Assembly (NCBI GenBank): GCA_023384675.1
Contig: JAHDVK010000035.1
Coordinates: 1-51,789 of the forward strand
DNA: 51,789 nt
Source: Bryobacteraceae bacterium
Lineage (GTDB): Bacteria; Acidobacteriota; Terriglobia; Bryobacterales; Bryobacteraceae
Reading direction: 5' to 3'
Part shown: one piece after another, positions 7,371-12,085 of the stretch
How the letters are laid out: each line of letters starts with the position of its first letter
How positions within the stretch are numbered: the first letter of the stretch is position 1
The notes under the pieces: generated by a model
Told to the model about the DNA's origin: nothing
Databases searched by the model: none
Seen by the model: only the letters and a program-made list of their open reading frames with translations
Translations under genes and position numbers: made by a program

Positions 7371-7410
7371 TGTTCCGCGCGCGATTACTTGGACAGTCAA
7401 TTCACCATAA

Positions 7411-7611
7411 TCAAGCAGCCTGCTGGAGCGCAAGGAAGCGCTGACGAGCCTGCCGCGGGGACTGGAAGCCGAGCCGTTCGATGAGCCACTCGCGGTTGTA
7501 CCGGTCGCGGAATTCCCGCAGGGCGGCTTGCAGTTCGTCGAGATCCTGGAAGTGCCGCACCCAGAGCAACTGTTCCTTGAGGGTGCGGAAGAAGCGTTCA
7601 ATGCAGCCATT
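7411..7611 (-). pseudogene. IS3 OrfB transposase, C-terminal fragment
   Basis: Encodes the end of the DDE domain from the Asn-Gly just before the catalytic Glu: NGCIERFFRTLKEQLLWV, followed by FQDLDELQAALREF and LGFQSPRQAR. The glutamate in CIERF is the third catalytic residue. The N-terminal part with the two Asp residues is at 10955-11662. Removing 7612-10954 gives GGC-AAT-GGC-TGC at the junction and a clean REPEGNGCIERF reading, so the break is due to insertion rather than decay. Confidence 0.85.
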
Positions 7612-7664
7612 GGACAAGGTCGTTAACTGCACCGCATGGTGACTGTGGGGATGCAGGCTTCGAG

Positions 7665-7928
7665 GTGATCCATCCCCATCATCCATTGAAGGGCCAGCGC
7701 TTCAAGTTGGTGACCTATCGCCACAACTGGGGCGAGGATCGAGTCTACTTCCACGCCGCCGATGGCAGCCTTTGCTCGATTCCAGCGTCCTGGACGACGG
7801 TCATAGCCGAGGATCCTTTTGTGGTTGTCGCTGCCGGTCGATGCCTGTTTCGTTACGACGATCTTCTGAAACTGACTGACTTGGTGGAGAAGTCGCAATG
7901 TGGAGTCAGCCTGGAGTCTGTAAAGTGA
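7665..7928 (+). CDS. DUF5372-like small protein of the recombinase element
   Basis: 87 residues from a GTG start. The sequence has HPLKGQRFKLVTYRHNWGE, an aromatic strand (VYFHAADGSL), SIPASWTTV and an acidic end (RYDDLLKLTDLVEK). I believe this is the DUF5372 family, often found beside recombinase family proteins; no function is known. The frame stays open leftward across the element border, so translation from an outside start is possible, but the GTG at 7665 is the first in-frame candidate I can justify. It lies 53 bp inside the left end, on the same strand as the recombinase but before the promoter of the other three genes. Confidence 0.6.
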   Translation: MIHPHHPLKGQRFKLVTYRHNWGEDRVYFHAADGSLCSIPASWTTVIAEDPFVVVAAGRCLFRYDDLLKLTDLVEKSQCGVSLESVK

Positions 7929-8044
7929 ATTACGCCGAACATGTAAACAGAATAACGCCGCATGAGCCACCGGGATCCCTCGTCGGCGAAGGCGATAGAA
8001 GAGACCAAAACAAATGAAAGCGGATCACTTGCGACAGAAAAGCC

Positions 8045-8072
8045 TTGACAAGCGCGATATGTGGTACATAAT
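8045..8072 (+). promoter_or_regulatory. Sigma70-type promoter of the HTH-recombinase operon
   Basis: TTGACA (8045-8050), 16-bp spacer, CATAAT (8067-8072). It lies 38 bp before the HTH gene, in the only sizeable gap inside the element. Confidence 0.65.
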
Positions 8073-8110
8073 TGTCTTTACAGGTAAGCGGCCGACTCTC
8101 CCCGGTGTTT

Positions 8111-8569
8111 ATGCCCGACAAAGACCCCAAGCTCAAGACATTGCAGCAACAGGGCGCCTTGAACCCTCGCCCGGGGGACGTCACGGACGACTTGTTTGCC
8201 GAAGGCGGCTTCTTCGATTCGCGCGACCTTGTCCAAGTCAAATACGAGATGCTTCGGCGCGTGCAGGCCGACGGCCAGTCCATCAGCGATACCTCTGCGG
8301 CCTTCGGGCTTTCCAGGCCATCGTTCTATCAGGCCCGGTTGGCGTTCGAGCAGGATGGACTCGCCGGCCTGGTGCCGCACAAACGCGGGCCCAAGCAGGC
8401 CCACAAGCTGACCGAGGAAGTCATGCAGTTCATCGTCGGCATTCGCGAAAGAGAGCCATCGGTCCGGCCGCCGGAACTAGCCCGGTTGATCCGGGAGCGC
8501 TTCGGTACGACCGTCCATCCGCGAAGCATCGAGCGCAGCCTGCTGCGCCACCAAAAAAAACGCCGTTGA
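8111..8569 (+). CDS. Helix-turn-helix protein of the recombinase element
   Basis: 152 residues starting MPDKDPKLKTLQQQG. After an acidic N-terminal region comes a KYEMLRRVQADG helix and a homeodomain-like helix-turn-helix (SISDTSAAFGLSRPSFYQAR), then a second winged-helix-like segment (HKLTEEVMQFIVGIRE, SVRPPELARLIRERFG, HPRSIERSL) of the kind found in IS630/resolvase-like transposases. It ends in a Lys/Arg tail encoded by a run of eight adenines. No catalytic domain is visible, so it is probably a DNA-binding accessory protein for excision, integration or self-regulation. Its stop overlaps the TTG start of the next gene (TTGA). Confidence 0.75.
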   Translation: MPDKDPKLKTLQQQGALNPRPGDVTDDLFAEGGFFDSRDLVQVKYEMLRRVQADGQSISDTSAAFGLSRPSFYQARLAFEQDGLAGLVPHKRGPKQAHKLTEEVMQFIVGIREREPSVRPPELARLIRERFGTTVHPRSIERSLLRHQKKRR

Positions 8570-8862
8570 CGGGAGTCTGCAGCCCGGGCGCCCCCCGTCA
8601 GGATCTGATCGCCCACTACGAGCAGCTTCGGCGAGACGCCCTGCGGACCGCCGATGGGGGCGGAGGATTGGGTCTCGCTTTGTTTCTTCGGCGCGGAATG
8701 GCCGCCTGGATCCAGGCTTGGCCGGAATGCGCCAGCGATGTCGGCTCTGGCCCACTTTCACGTCCCAGCGTCGATCAAGCGGTTCCCGCCGACCTGCGGT
8801 CCCAGATCGCCACGCTGTTGGCCGGAATCGTCTTGTGTCTGCAACAGGAGGCCACCCCATGA
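8566..8862 (+). CDS. 98-residue ORF chained between HTH and recombinase genes
   Basis: Starts at TTG 8566, overlapping the HTH stop as TTGA, and ends at 8862, overlapping the recombinase ATG as ATGA. The product contains QDLIAHYEQLRRDALR, then LGLALFLRRGMAAWIQA and, at the end, LRSQIATLLAGIVLCLQQ, a mostly helical protein with two amphipathic segments. It is also the -1 frame after the A8 run at 8553-8560, so it could be made as a frameshifted C-terminal extension of the HTH protein. Both overlaps argue that it is translated. No family recognised. Confidence 0.65.
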   Translation: MTGVCSPGAPRQDLIAHYEQLRRDALRTADGGGGLGLALFLRRGMAAWIQAWPECASDVGSGPLSRPSVDQAVPADLRSQIATLLAGIVLCLQQEATP

Positions 8863-10949
8863 CCGGTAGCTCACACCAAAAGGTCAACGCAAACCATCTG
8901 AAGCGGAACGCCTATCTCTACGTCCGGCAATCCACGCTCCGTCAGGTGTTCGAAAACACGGAGAGCACCAAACGGCAGTATGGCCTGCGCCAGCATGCTG
9001 TCGCCCTGGGGTGGCCGGACGATCGGATCATCGTCATCGACAGCGACCTGGGGCAGTCGGGGGCTTCCGCAGTGGATCGTGAGGGCTTCCAGCGGCTCGT
9101 GGCCGAAGTTGGACTGGGCAAAGCGGGCATCGTGCTCGGTCTGGAAGTCTCGCGTCTGGCGCGCAATTCCACCGACTGGCACCGGCTGCTGGAGATCTGC
9201 GCTCTGTCGGACACGCTCATCCTCGACGAAGACGGAGTCTACGATCCTTCTCACTTCAACGACCGGCTCCTGCTTGGCTTGAAAGGGACGATGAGCGAAG
9301 CCGAGCTGCACGTGCTGCGGGCACGTCTGCAAGGGGGCATTCTGAACAAGGCGCGGCGCGGCGAATTGCAATGCCCGCTGCCCGTGGGCTTCATCTACAC
9401 ACCGGCCAATCAGCCTGCGCTCGACCCGGATAAACAGGTCCAGGAGAGCATCAGTTTTTTCTTTGATACGTTCCGGCGCACCGGATCGGCCTGCGCGGTG
9501 ATCAAGGCATTCCGGCAGAAGGGCCTGCTCTTCCCGCGACGCCTGAAAAATGGGCCCAACAAGGGCGCCCTCGTGTGGGCGGAACTCGTGCACAGCCGGG
9601 CGCTGCATATCCTCCACAATCCCCGTTTCGCCGGCGCATTCGTGTATGGCCGGAGCCGCACCCGGCCGATGGCGAACGGCGGAACCTCTTACACCAAGCT
9701 GCCGCGGGAACAATGGATGCTAATCAAGGATGCTCATCCGGGCTACATCTCATGGGAACAGTTTGAAGGGAACCTGGAGCGGCTTCGCGAGAACGCCCAC
9801 GCCCTCGGCTCGGATCGCCGCAAGAGCCCGCCCCGCGAAGGTCCGGCACTGCTTCAGGGCATGGTGGTCTGCGGCCTTTGTGGAAGCCGGATGACGGTCC
9901 GCTACCACACGCGAGGAAGCTTGCTTGTGCCTGAGTATATCTGCCAGCGCGACGGGGTCCAGCACGGGCAGCCCGTCTGTCAGCGAGTGGTGGGAGACCA
10001 GGTGGACAAAGCCGTCGGACAACTGCTGGTGGAAAGCATCAGCCCACTCGCGCTCGAGGTTTCCCTGGCCGTCCAACAGGAACTTCAGGCGCGTGTGGAT
10101 GAAGTGGACCGGATTCGCAGAAAACAAGTAGAGCGTGCTCGCTATGAGGCCGAACTCGCTCAGCGCCGTTATCTTCACGTCGATCCCGCCAACCGGCTCG
10201 TCGCCGACTCGCTTGAGGCGGACTGGAATGAGAAACTGCGCGTCCTGAATGAAGTCCGGGAGCAATACGAGCAACAACGCCAGCAGGATCGCGCCATCGT
10301 CGACGATCAACAGCGCGCCCGGATTGCCGCTCTGGCCAGCGACTTTCCACGCTTGTGGCAGGACTCGAACACTCCGGACCGGGAGCGCAAGCGTATGATC
10401 CGGCTACTGCTGGCCGACGTAACTCTCATCCGGAAGGACATGATCACGGCCCATGTCCGCTTTCGCGGCGGAGCATCGAAAACGCTGATGCTGCCTCGCC
10501 CGCTGACAGCTTGGGAAATCAGGACGACACCGGCGGAGCTGGTTGCCGAGATCGACCGGCTTACGGATGAGCACACCGACAAGAAGATTGCAGAGATCCT
10601 CAACCAACGGGGAGCTTTGTCCGGCTGCGGTCAACGCTTCAGTAGCCGGATCGTGGCACGCCTGCGCCGCGAATATCATCTGAAACCGCGCTATGATCGG
10701 CTACGCGAGAATGGCCTGCTGACTCTGGACGAGATGTCGATACGATTGGGAATCACGCGCAAGGGTGTTATCGCCTGGCGAAATCACGGGTTGCTGCGCG
10801 GCTATCCGGTCAATGACAGAGACGACTGGCTCTACGAAGATCCAGGGCCGACACCACCACGCAAGGCGCAGGGCGTCAAACTCGCCCAGAGAAGGCAGTT
10901 TGCAGAGAATGTCGTGCGCGGTTCGGAAGAGGTGCAGTGTGAAGCGTAA
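8859..10949 (+). CDS. Large serine recombinase
   Basis: 697 residues from ATG 8859, with AGGAG 8 bases upstream. The N-terminal resolvase domain has the catalytic serine in YVRQST (residue 25), GLEVSRLARN with the active-site arginines and GTMSEAELHVLRARL. A recombinase domain follows (FRRTGSACAVIKAF, LHNPRFAGAFVYGR), then a zinc ribbon (CGLCGSRM ... ICQ ... VCQ), a long coiled coil (about residues 390-490) and a C-terminal HTH-like region (MSIRLGITRKGVIAW). It would catalyse insertion and excision of the element through 2-bp staggered breaks. An open frame runs further upstream (from 8718), but it has no recombinase-like residues. Complete, no inactivating change seen. Confidence 0.92.
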   Translation: MTGSSHQKVNANHLKRNAYLYVRQSTLRQVFENTESTKRQYGLRQHAVALGWPDDRIIVIDSDLGQSGASAVDREGFQRLVAEVGLGKAGIVLGLEVSRLARNSTDWHRLLEICALSDTLILDEDGVYDPSHFNDRLLLGLKGTMSEAELHVLRARLQGGILNKARRGELQCPLPVGFIYTPANQPALDPDKQVQESISFFFDTFRRTGSACAVIKAFRQKGLLFPRRLKNGPNKGALVWAELVHSRALHILHNPRFAGAFVYGRSRTRPMANGGTSYTKLPREQWMLIKDAHPGYISWEQFEGNLERLRENAHALGSDRRKSPPREGPALLQGMVVCGLCGSRMTVRYHTRGSLLVPEYICQRDGVQHGQPVCQRVVGDQVDKAVGQLLVESISPLALEVSLAVQQELQARVDEVDRIRRKQVERARYEAELAQRRYLHVDPANRLVADSLEADWNEKLRVLNEVREQYEQQRQQDRAIVDDQQRARIAALASDFPRLWQDSNTPDRERKRMIRLLLADVTLIRKDMITAHVRFRGGASKTLMLPRPLTAWEIRTTPAELVAEIDRLTDEHTDKKIAEILNQRGALSGCGQRFSSRIVARLRREYHLKPRYDRLRENGLLTLDEMSIRLGITRKGVIAWRNHGLLRGYPVNDRDDWLYEDPGPTPPRKAQGVKLAQRRQFAENVVRGSEEVQCEA

Positions 10950-10954
10950 GCCTT

Positions 10955-11662
10955 GCCTTCGGGTTCCCGGACGAAGGCGGGCGAGGAAGTCATCCCCAGA
11001 AAACGCAATTCCTGTTGAAAGTGGTCGCTCATGTATTGCGAACCGTGGTCGTGGCGAATGCGCAGGCCAGCGGCGGCCTGGGGGCCGAAGCCTCCGAAGT
11101 GCTCGCGCACGCCCTGGCGTAGCGGTTCCAGCGCTTCAAAGCGGGTGGCGCGTTTGACGGCGTGAATACCCACGCACTCGGCGGTGTAGTGATCGATGGC
11201 GGCAAAGACCGTCACCTGCCCCTCGGCCAGAGTGACGGTCACGGTGGCGTCGGTGCCCCACATCTGGTCCGGCTCCTCGGTCACGATCGTGCCGGCATGC
11301 GACTTGGCGGCCACTGCGGCCAGCCGCCGCTGCGGCGCCAGGAGCTGGTTTTCGCGCATCACGCGCAGCACACGTCGCTTGGACGTGCGGACATCCTGGA
11401 GTCGCAACCGCGCCCAGATCTTGCGATGTCCTTCCCCATGAAACGGAGAAGCGGCGAGGATGGCGCGGATCCTCTCGAGCAGTTCGGCATCGGTGTGGGG
11501 GGTCTTCGGCCCGCGCCGCTGCGGGATTGCGGGATGCCGTGCCCTTTGCTGGCGGGCATAGAAGGTGGAGCGGGAAAGCCCCCAAGCCGCGAGCACGCGA
11601 GCCCGCCCGTACGTGCGCTGTGTGGAGGGCGACTGGGTCTGGCTCATCGCTTCGACCTCCAC
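10955..11662 (-). pseudogene. IS3 OrfB transposase, N-terminal fragment
   Basis: Carries the HTH_21-type region (SPFHGEGHRKIWARL), the first catalytic Asp (WGTDATVTV) and the second (RHDHGSQYMSDHF), and stops being transposase-like right after REPEG at 10955. The open frame continues into the inserted element with unrelated residues. Its start overlaps orfA by 19 bp in the -1 frame, the usual IS3 arrangement for a frameshifted OrfAB. The C-terminal piece with the catalytic Glu is at 7411-7611. Confidence 0.85.
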
Positions 11663-12033
11663 TTCAAAGAAGGGTGGGCGTTCTCCAGTTGCTGGATGCG
11701 CTCGCGGAGAAGCTCGTTGGCCATGGTCAGGTCGGCGATGACGGACTTCATGCGCCGGCCCTGGTCGTCCACGAGGTCCTCGTCGCGGATCTTCAAGCCA
11801 GCCTCGCCGCTGGCGAGAAAGGCATCGCGCCAGGCCGAGAGGGTGGCGGCGGTGACGGCGTACTTGCGACTGAGGGATTCGAGATCCTCGCCGCGGAGGA
11901 GTTCAAGAACGACGGCCATCTTGCGCTTGGCCGACCACCGGCCAGCGCCGCGACGGCCGGTCCCGGGGTCCTCTCCGGTCGCCCTCCGGGCTCCCTCCGC
12001 GGCCCCCGGGACCGCTGGTTTGCTGTTGGACAT
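11644..12033 (-). CDS. IS3-family OrfA (transposase HTH subunit)
   Basis: 129 residues: a low-complexity Gly/Arg N-terminus, then an HTH (KMAVVLELLRGEDLESLSRKYAV..TLSAW) and a C-terminal leucine-zipper-like coiled coil (IADLTMANELLRERIQQLEN). Typical of IS3 OrfA, which binds the inverted repeats. It overlaps orfB in the -1 frame. It seems intact, but without a whole OrfB the element cannot transpose by itself. Confidence 0.85.
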   Translation of the reverse strand: MSNSKPAVPGAAEGARRATGEDPGTGRRGAGRWSAKRKMAVVLELLRGEDLESLSRKYAVTAATLSAWRDAFLASGEAGLKIRDEDLVDDQGRRMKSVIADLTMANELLRERIQQLENAHPSLKWRSKR

Positions 12034-12085
12034 GCTGACTCTCCTTTCCTCAAATCAGTGTCCAAGAAATTCGTGGGGCGGGGGA

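Follow-up and report, generated by a model that had tools for sequence, protein, structure and literature searches.

Insertion sequences (ISs) are commonly regarded as the lowest link in the chain of parasites. The group II intron RmInt1, a retrohoming RNA element, homes to a conserved site in ISRm2011-2, and phiRv1-type prophages use a serine integrase whose target is the REP13E12 repeats. The TndX/TnpX transposons are elements of large serine recombinases. Among the multi-targeting clade of large serine recombinases, 63% carry DUF4368 according to passages of Durrant et al. 2022 (PMC10083194); the target genes mentioned there are those for magnesium chelatase, prolyl isomerase and competence, and neither transposases nor the gene set described below appear in these passages. 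The IS607 serine transposons have an inverted domain order with an N-terminal DNA-binding domain (PMC4058570). In mycobacteriophage BPs, the attachment site lies in the repressor gene, and integration removes 33 C-terminal residues, upon which the repressor becomes active (PMC4557955). Here I describe a 3,341-bp element at positions 7612-10952 of a 51,789-nucleotide contig of a Bryobacteraceae bacterium (JAHDVK010000035.1 of assembly GCA_023384675.1; the whole contig is called the window). Its genes, including one for a large serine recombinase, lie on the plus strand inside the minus-strand orfB of an IS3-family element. It very probably represents a widespread family of autonomous mobile elements living inside other mobile elements, with recombinase-driven insertion into conserved motifs of mobile genes and with a DUF5372 gene that is completed by circle formation.

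The host (approximate ends 7389..12066, minus strand) is an IS3-family element, since it has an orfA and an orfB with an rve core. It has an imperfect terminal inverted repeat around TTGGACA on both sides, and no target duplication was recognised at its ends. The orfA gene (11644..12033, minus strand) matches HTH_28 and HTH_Tnp_1. The 5′ part of orfB (10955..11662, minus strand; rve, HTH_21 and NCBIfam transpos_IS3 with E 3e-30) runs up to the Asn codon four residues ahead of a Glu that I take to be the catalytic residue. The 3′ part (7411..7609, minus strand; rve_3 and transpos_IS3 positions 314-369) begins in the same codon. Along the plus strand, the order is host, TT (7610..7611), element, TT (10953..10954) and host, and only TT is common to both junctions. 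When the flanks are joined at a single TT, an open frame of 382 codons runs across the junction and reads REPEG-N-GCIERF. The core is thus the first two bases (AA) of the orfB Asn codon. A preliminary description of this region had claimed exactly this restoration of OrfB, and it holds. The place that it gave for the element is also right, while the extent of 7612-10954 has to be corrected to a body of 7612-10952 plus a 2-bp core.

The left end of the element (7612..7633, plus strand) consists of a 14-bp arm and ACTGCACC (7626-7633), and the right end (10931..10952, plus strand) consists of GGTGCAGT (10931-10938) and a 14-bp arm. The inverted motif therefore lies exactly 14 bp from the core at both ends, as described before. 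Relatives across phyla have the same layout: core, 14 bp and a ACTGCACC-like motif, inverted at both ends. On their left side, the core is followed by 14 bases and by ACTGCACC or a near variant; on their right side, GGAGGTGCAGT-ATG is followed by 11 more bases and the core. Since this architecture recurs across phyla, it is beyond chance in the window. The core dinucleotide is TT in most relatives, TA in L024, L025 and L089, CA in L041, TG in L045, and GG in a distant group (L058, L093 and L114). The end-calling script favoured equal cores at both ends, so the core agreement is partly built in; it is independently backed by copy-to-copy and empty-site comparisons. Some left ends were set by hand instead of by the script, several of them from pairwise comparison of copies. 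A matching 2-bp core at both ends, together with a host gene restored on joining, is what a large serine recombinase is expected to leave.

Relatives were collected from several sources. A recombinase scan of genome contigs gave 34 loci, which by their record titles belong to Acidobacteriota, Pseudomonadota, Planctomycetota, Actinomycetota, Myxococcota, Bacillota and others. Among the Acidobacteriota, 20 of 396 genomes, own genome included, have a recombinase match at E ≤1e-60. Three further genome draws gave 2/369, 2/289 and 5/294 at E ≤1e-150, each including the genome on which the draw was centred. In addition, 472 plasmid records, mostly rhizobial, have a match at E ≤1e-30 (18 regions were read), and one viral contig carries a relative. 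Twelve genomes or records have 1 to 9 recombinase matches each (E ≤1e-100), and the window's own genome has one full copy. The border of several metagenome contigs (L015, L016, L020 and L041) coincides exactly with an element end, which fits a collapsed repeat. The main set comprised 94 loci with at least 50% identity, which were reduced to 61 distinct flank keys plus five loci without two recognised ends. Two of the five (L047 and L057) have no usable ends, and three (L005, L034 and L100) have one end each, which was read by eye. These three and the 57 keys with enough flank make up the 60 assessable insertions. L015, L016, L041 and L042, with no or almost no host flank, and L004, with a flank of 18-21 bp, stand outside the 60. 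Another 23 loci were kept apart because their identity was under 50% or the match was too short; 22 were treated separately and L056 was left out. As a separate observation, a second, distant recombinase (37%) lies beside the element in L034 (1040-2920) in the opposite orientation.

Which genes do the close relatives interrupt? By restored reading frame and motif, 54 of the 60 distinct insertions were assigned to transposase or IS66 TnpB genes (both totals are hand counts, and several insertions share one genome, such as four in Poly30). The hosts are IS21 IstA (22), IS3 orfB (10), IS91/ISCR-like transposases (9), other rve or IS481-like transposases (5), Mu/Tni-type transposases (2), ISNCY (2), IS66 TnpB (2), IS256 (1) and IS4 (1). 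In 46 of the 54, a single unjoined flank has a transposase-type profile match at E ≤0.01, 31 by Pfam and 15 more by NCBIfam. The NCBIfam scan of 53 flank translations gave overlapping matches to IS21 (22), IS481 (19), IS3 (13), IS66 accessory TnpA (7), IS630 (4), ISCR (3) and ISNCY (2), and one each to IS91, IS66 TnpB, IS4 and IS256. RefSeq names, where present (L061, L109, L112 and L113), agree with the assignment. In DDE hosts, with few exceptions, the core coincides in the same phase with the AA of an Asn or Lys codon located at Glu minus 4; L038, in an IS4 transposase, is at the Glu itself. For the IS21 hosts, the model match on the right side often stops at 224-226 of 294, and one left side begins at 230, the same place.

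The distant relatives (35-47% identity) are similar in this respect, as 15 of the 22 loci also lie inside mobile-element genes. The hosts are group II intron or related reverse transcriptase genes (L058, L093, L114 and L079), IstB (L051 and L115), IS66 TnpB (L052 and L117), IS66 TnpC (L050), IS1380 (L076), IS110 (L080), IS5 (L081, L118 and L119) and an rve transposase (L116). Pfam backed 8 of the 10 distant loci scanned and gave nothing for L058 and L114; Rfam found group II introns in L114, L093 and L049 among the five loci scanned. The idea of a transposon parasitising transposons, put forward in the preliminary description, is supported by both sets, and random insertion was not seen: the homologues concentrate in mobile-element genes. 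The proposal that the element spreads among IS3 copies at the catalytic-Glu motif was too narrow, because the equivalent codon is hit in several DDE families. Nor is the split site confined to the IS3 codons; other motifs are hit in IS91/ISCR, IS66 TnpB, IstB, IS110 and reverse transcriptase genes.

Does the element move by itself? It might instead be a single old insertion that spread passively, as the host IS transposed and through horizontal transfer. Elements with full-length identity (3.2-3.5 kb) were found in different hosts: in pNGR234a, L070 is in an IS21 and L059 in an ISNCY; in Streptomyces, L061 and L071 are in two different transposases on one plasmid; in Polaromonas, L102 and L103 are in two unrelated IS21-like elements. 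In Poly30, four identical copies are in IS91/ISCR-like copies whose right flanks differ by 5-26%, and Bradyrhizobium has three element copies that are 99.8-99.9% identical. Uninterrupted host copies with a 2-3 bp overlap at the site exist in the same genome in Poly30 and in Polaromonas, the latter with three such copies. Because identical copies lie in different host ISs, and uninterrupted hosts are present in two of these genomes, the element has moved on its own, and recently. On the other side, near-identical interrupted IS3 copies occur at five Polaromonas loci (L009, L010, L011, L026 and L037) whose outer flanks differ; some interrupted ISs have therefore probably moved as units, and the host can probably still carry the element along. 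Passive carriage alone is highly improbable, and it was rejected because of the identical elements in unrelated hosts.

Besides the own genome, two of the 297 Acidobacteriota genomes searched have DNA that matches the empty site predicted for the window's IS3 in an alignment with no net gap, judged by alignment coordinates: 108 bp at 79% across the site in G190, and 166 bp at 72% in G109. Intact IS3 relatives thus match the predicted site; a mismatch would have spoken against the preliminary description. In the window's own genome, no uninterrupted copy of this IS3 was found at E 0.001.

How the targets are recognised is less clear. Target families cluster on the recombinase tree, with 36 changes against a shuffled mean of 53.8 and none of 200 shuffles as low (75 rows, with unassigned rows counted as groups). 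With a motif built from 30 DDE sites, the left-out true site ranks first in 26 of 30 hosts, a figure that is inflated by host homology. In about 2 Mb of fetched sequence (both strands), 17 of the 30 left-out sites are found with ≤1.5 false positives per Mb; the rate is 158 per Mb at the window's own site and over 7,000 for L096. A degenerate DNA motif is a plausible targeting signal, and the motif does not fully explain the avoidance of other genes: the two sites of one element in unrelated hosts agree at no more than 20-22 of 46 bases, a similarity reached by about 1-4% of random AA-centred sites. The small number of shared bases would suit a loosely specific, multi-targeting recombinase, for which the preference for mobile genes is a survival bias, as IS hits are harmless. 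The high false-positive rate at the window's site and the six insertions of 60 without an assigned host point in the same direction. However, insertions in different families hit the same codon in one reading phase, which survival bias would not predict; in addition, most DDE sites rank first in their hosts, and the target choice follows the recombinase tree. I regard loose targeting as unlikely and favour a recombinase that homes to conserved motifs of mobile genes.

Several further points weigh against an element restricted to such genes. Eight of the 54 assigned insertions (L018, L020, L023, L024, L025, L031, L034 and L096) were assigned by frame and motif and have no profile match; for L018, L023, L025, L031 and L096, the profile scan of the flanks gave no transposase match. 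L017 and L028 show IS21-like DNA on the right flank only. The six close insertions without an assigned host gene are L014, L045, L065, L089, L100 and L101, and seven of the 22 distant loci have none either; because of these, exclusivity for mobile-element genes is not proven. The left-flank gene of L100 is not transposase-like by eye, and this may be an off-target insertion. L089 has a palindromic TA core and is flanked by two inverted half-copies of one gene, possibly a result of recombination between two insertions.

The DUF5372 gene is split across the attachment site. In 42 of 43 elements, joining the right end to the left end, as in an excised circle, creates a frame that begins at a start codon 14 bases ahead of the core, passes through core and left end and continues into DUF5372 (the 43 include a few close relatives of each other). 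In the window, this start is a GTG (10939..10954, through the core, plus strand) with an AGAGG-type ribosome-binding site ahead, and the body at 7612..7928 (plus strand; PF17342, E 1.2e-26) continues the frame. The distance from the core to an invariant HPxHP motif is 53, 56, 59, 62 or 65 nt, always 2 mod 3 (39/39), and substitutions in this stretch, counted by codon position in ten pairs, are 52, 49 and 79. Once integrated, 21 of 39 elements offer no in-frame start upstream of HPxHP at their left end. With the ribosome-binding site and the start downstream of the recombinase gene at the right end and the body at the left end, excision would complete DUF5372 and integration would break it. DUF5372 appears to be a circle-only gene, to judge from the joined ends.

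The right-end start codon may alternatively serve translation into the host gene; its frame would then run into DUF5372 only because the inverted repeat happens to have coding potential. In the integrated state this start does face host DNA, GC-rich DNA often keeps frames open, and the control with the other frames is weak, as one of them usually meets a stop immediately, within ATGA itself. Yet, by my reading, 45 of the 54 assigned hosts are antisense to the start, and a linker kept in frame at five lengths, with nearly all junctions running into DUF5372, is hard to reconcile with a by-product. I consider this alternative quite unlikely, and a gene completed in the circle is the better reading. 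Some findings do not fit it well. In L038, the ends are best read with 15-bp arms, and the circle frame of DUF5372 is broken there, which makes it the exception among the 43. A search for circle junctions with one strict pattern found none in viral contigs, and among the 139 fetched loci its two matches are both ordinary right ends. Moreover, DUF5372 matches occur in G021 and G064 (L132, L135 and L137), where no recombinase match is present at E 1e-60.

DUF5372 itself was found in 6 of 149 Acidobacteriota genomes, G021 and G064 among them, and in none of 14 control genomes. Its predicted structure has a predicted local distance difference test (pLDDT) score of 87.7; the model has no fold match in PDB at E 0.001 or better, a sequence search against PDB gave only two matches (E 0.87 and 0.95), and a literature search by the name DUF5372 found no paper. 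Two operator-like direct repeats, GTAAAnnnAATwACGCC, lie at 7920..7959 (plus strand) between DUF5372 and a promoter-like site, a pattern in 16 of 39 elements. The promoter-like TTGACA-16-CATAAT itself is at 8045..8072 (plus strand), between DUF5372 and the next gene, and is seen in 20 of 39 elements; both counts are without a chance control.

The gene that follows (8111..8569, plus strand) encodes a helix-turn-helix (HTH) protein with an IS481/IS630-type DNA-binding fold (HTH_32, HTH_28 and HTH_29, and partial IS481/IS630 matches in NCBIfam). At its end is a slippery heptamer, A_AAA_AAA (8554..8560, plus strand), and an open reading frame (ORF) of 98 codons, ORF3, lies in the −1 frame (8566..8862, plus strand). 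An in-phase A_AAA_AAN heptamer is present at the end of the HTH gene in 39 of 42 elements, and ORF3 is open in the −1 frame in 38 of 42. The heptamer is absent in three actinobacterial elements (L028, L061 and L063), and ORF3 of L063 seems to be provided with a separate start codon; in L035, L045 and L070 the long frame is +1 instead of −1. A slippery heptamer in phase with an overlapping −1 frame is an arrangement of the OrfA-OrfB type, and HTH and ORF3 are probably made as a −1 frameshift fusion. ORF3 has a conserved YExLR...GLALLLRxGMxAWM (alignment of 22 sequences) and no Pfam match; its structure model has three helices with a mean pLDDT of 74. All four ORFs named in the preliminary description are thus present, although what it called DUF5372-like covers just the 3′ part of the gene, the start being at the other end, and its HTH gene and 98-codon ORF probably yield one product.

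The recombinase (8859..10949, plus strand) is full length with 696 residues and has the Resolvase, Recombinase and zinc-ribbon domains (Pfam) of a large serine recombinase. Ser25 is conserved in 73 of 73 aligned rows, and Arg99 and Arg102 in 75 of 75; these residues are presumably catalytic. The catalytic domain is N-terminal, so the domain order is not that of IS607. Pfam found no DUF4368, the domain frequent in the multi-targeting clade, at E 0.1.

I infer the following course of events. The large serine recombinase would cut at the 2-bp core and, perhaps guided by the DNA motif, integrate the circular element at a conserved motif within a gene of a mobile element, with no duplication beyond the core; for the window's IS3 transposase, the site would be the AA of the Asn codon at catalytic Glu minus 4. 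In the circle, DUF5372 would follow the recombinase gene in one operon, and integration would deprive it of promoter, ribosome-binding site and start. It may report or enforce the excised state, for example by favouring integration, and the HTH-ORF3 fusion may act as a regulator or recombination partner.

On a wider view, it is fairly likely that a deep, cross-phylum lineage of serine recombinases has specialised on mobile elements, each subfamily homing to a conserved motif, often an unchangeable catalytic one, of a transposase, transposition helper or reverse transcriptase gene, with the circle-completed gene as a built-in state sensor. If so, a family devoted to disabling IS transposases at conserved codons would naturally curb transposition and add a new level to the conflict among mobile elements. 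It would account for many of the interrupted ISs and place DUF5372 in a context. The family is also a source of serine recombinases whose targets are unusual, and a clean system in which to test a gene switched by excision. The enzyme class is known, and the parasitic lifestyle and the circle-completed gene appear undescribed in the literature searched: titles and abstracts on serine recombinases with transposase genes or ISs, outside preprints and most subscription journals, contain no description of such a family.

Compared with known systems, the element resembles RmInt1 in homing to a conserved IS site and differs from it in being a DNA element with a serine recombinase rather than a retrohoming RNA; intron reverse transcriptase genes are themselves targets of its distant relatives. 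It shares with phiRv1-type prophages a serine integrase that uses a repeated element as target, but these are phage-sized and use one repeat family, whereas the present element is 3.3 kb and its family has many targets. The recombinases in the passages of Durrant et al. are of the same enzyme class, with a 2-bp core and no target duplication, and some of them insert at many sites; the frequent DUF4368 of their multi-targeting clade is what the window's recombinase lacks. For the split DUF5372 gene, the nearest known analogue would be the BPs-type repressor gene interrupted by the phage attachment site (PMC4557955). In both, the attachment site lies inside a gene and integration alters the product; here, DUF5372 would lose its ribosome-binding site and start codon rather than a C-terminal end, and the product is a domain of unknown function instead of a repressor.

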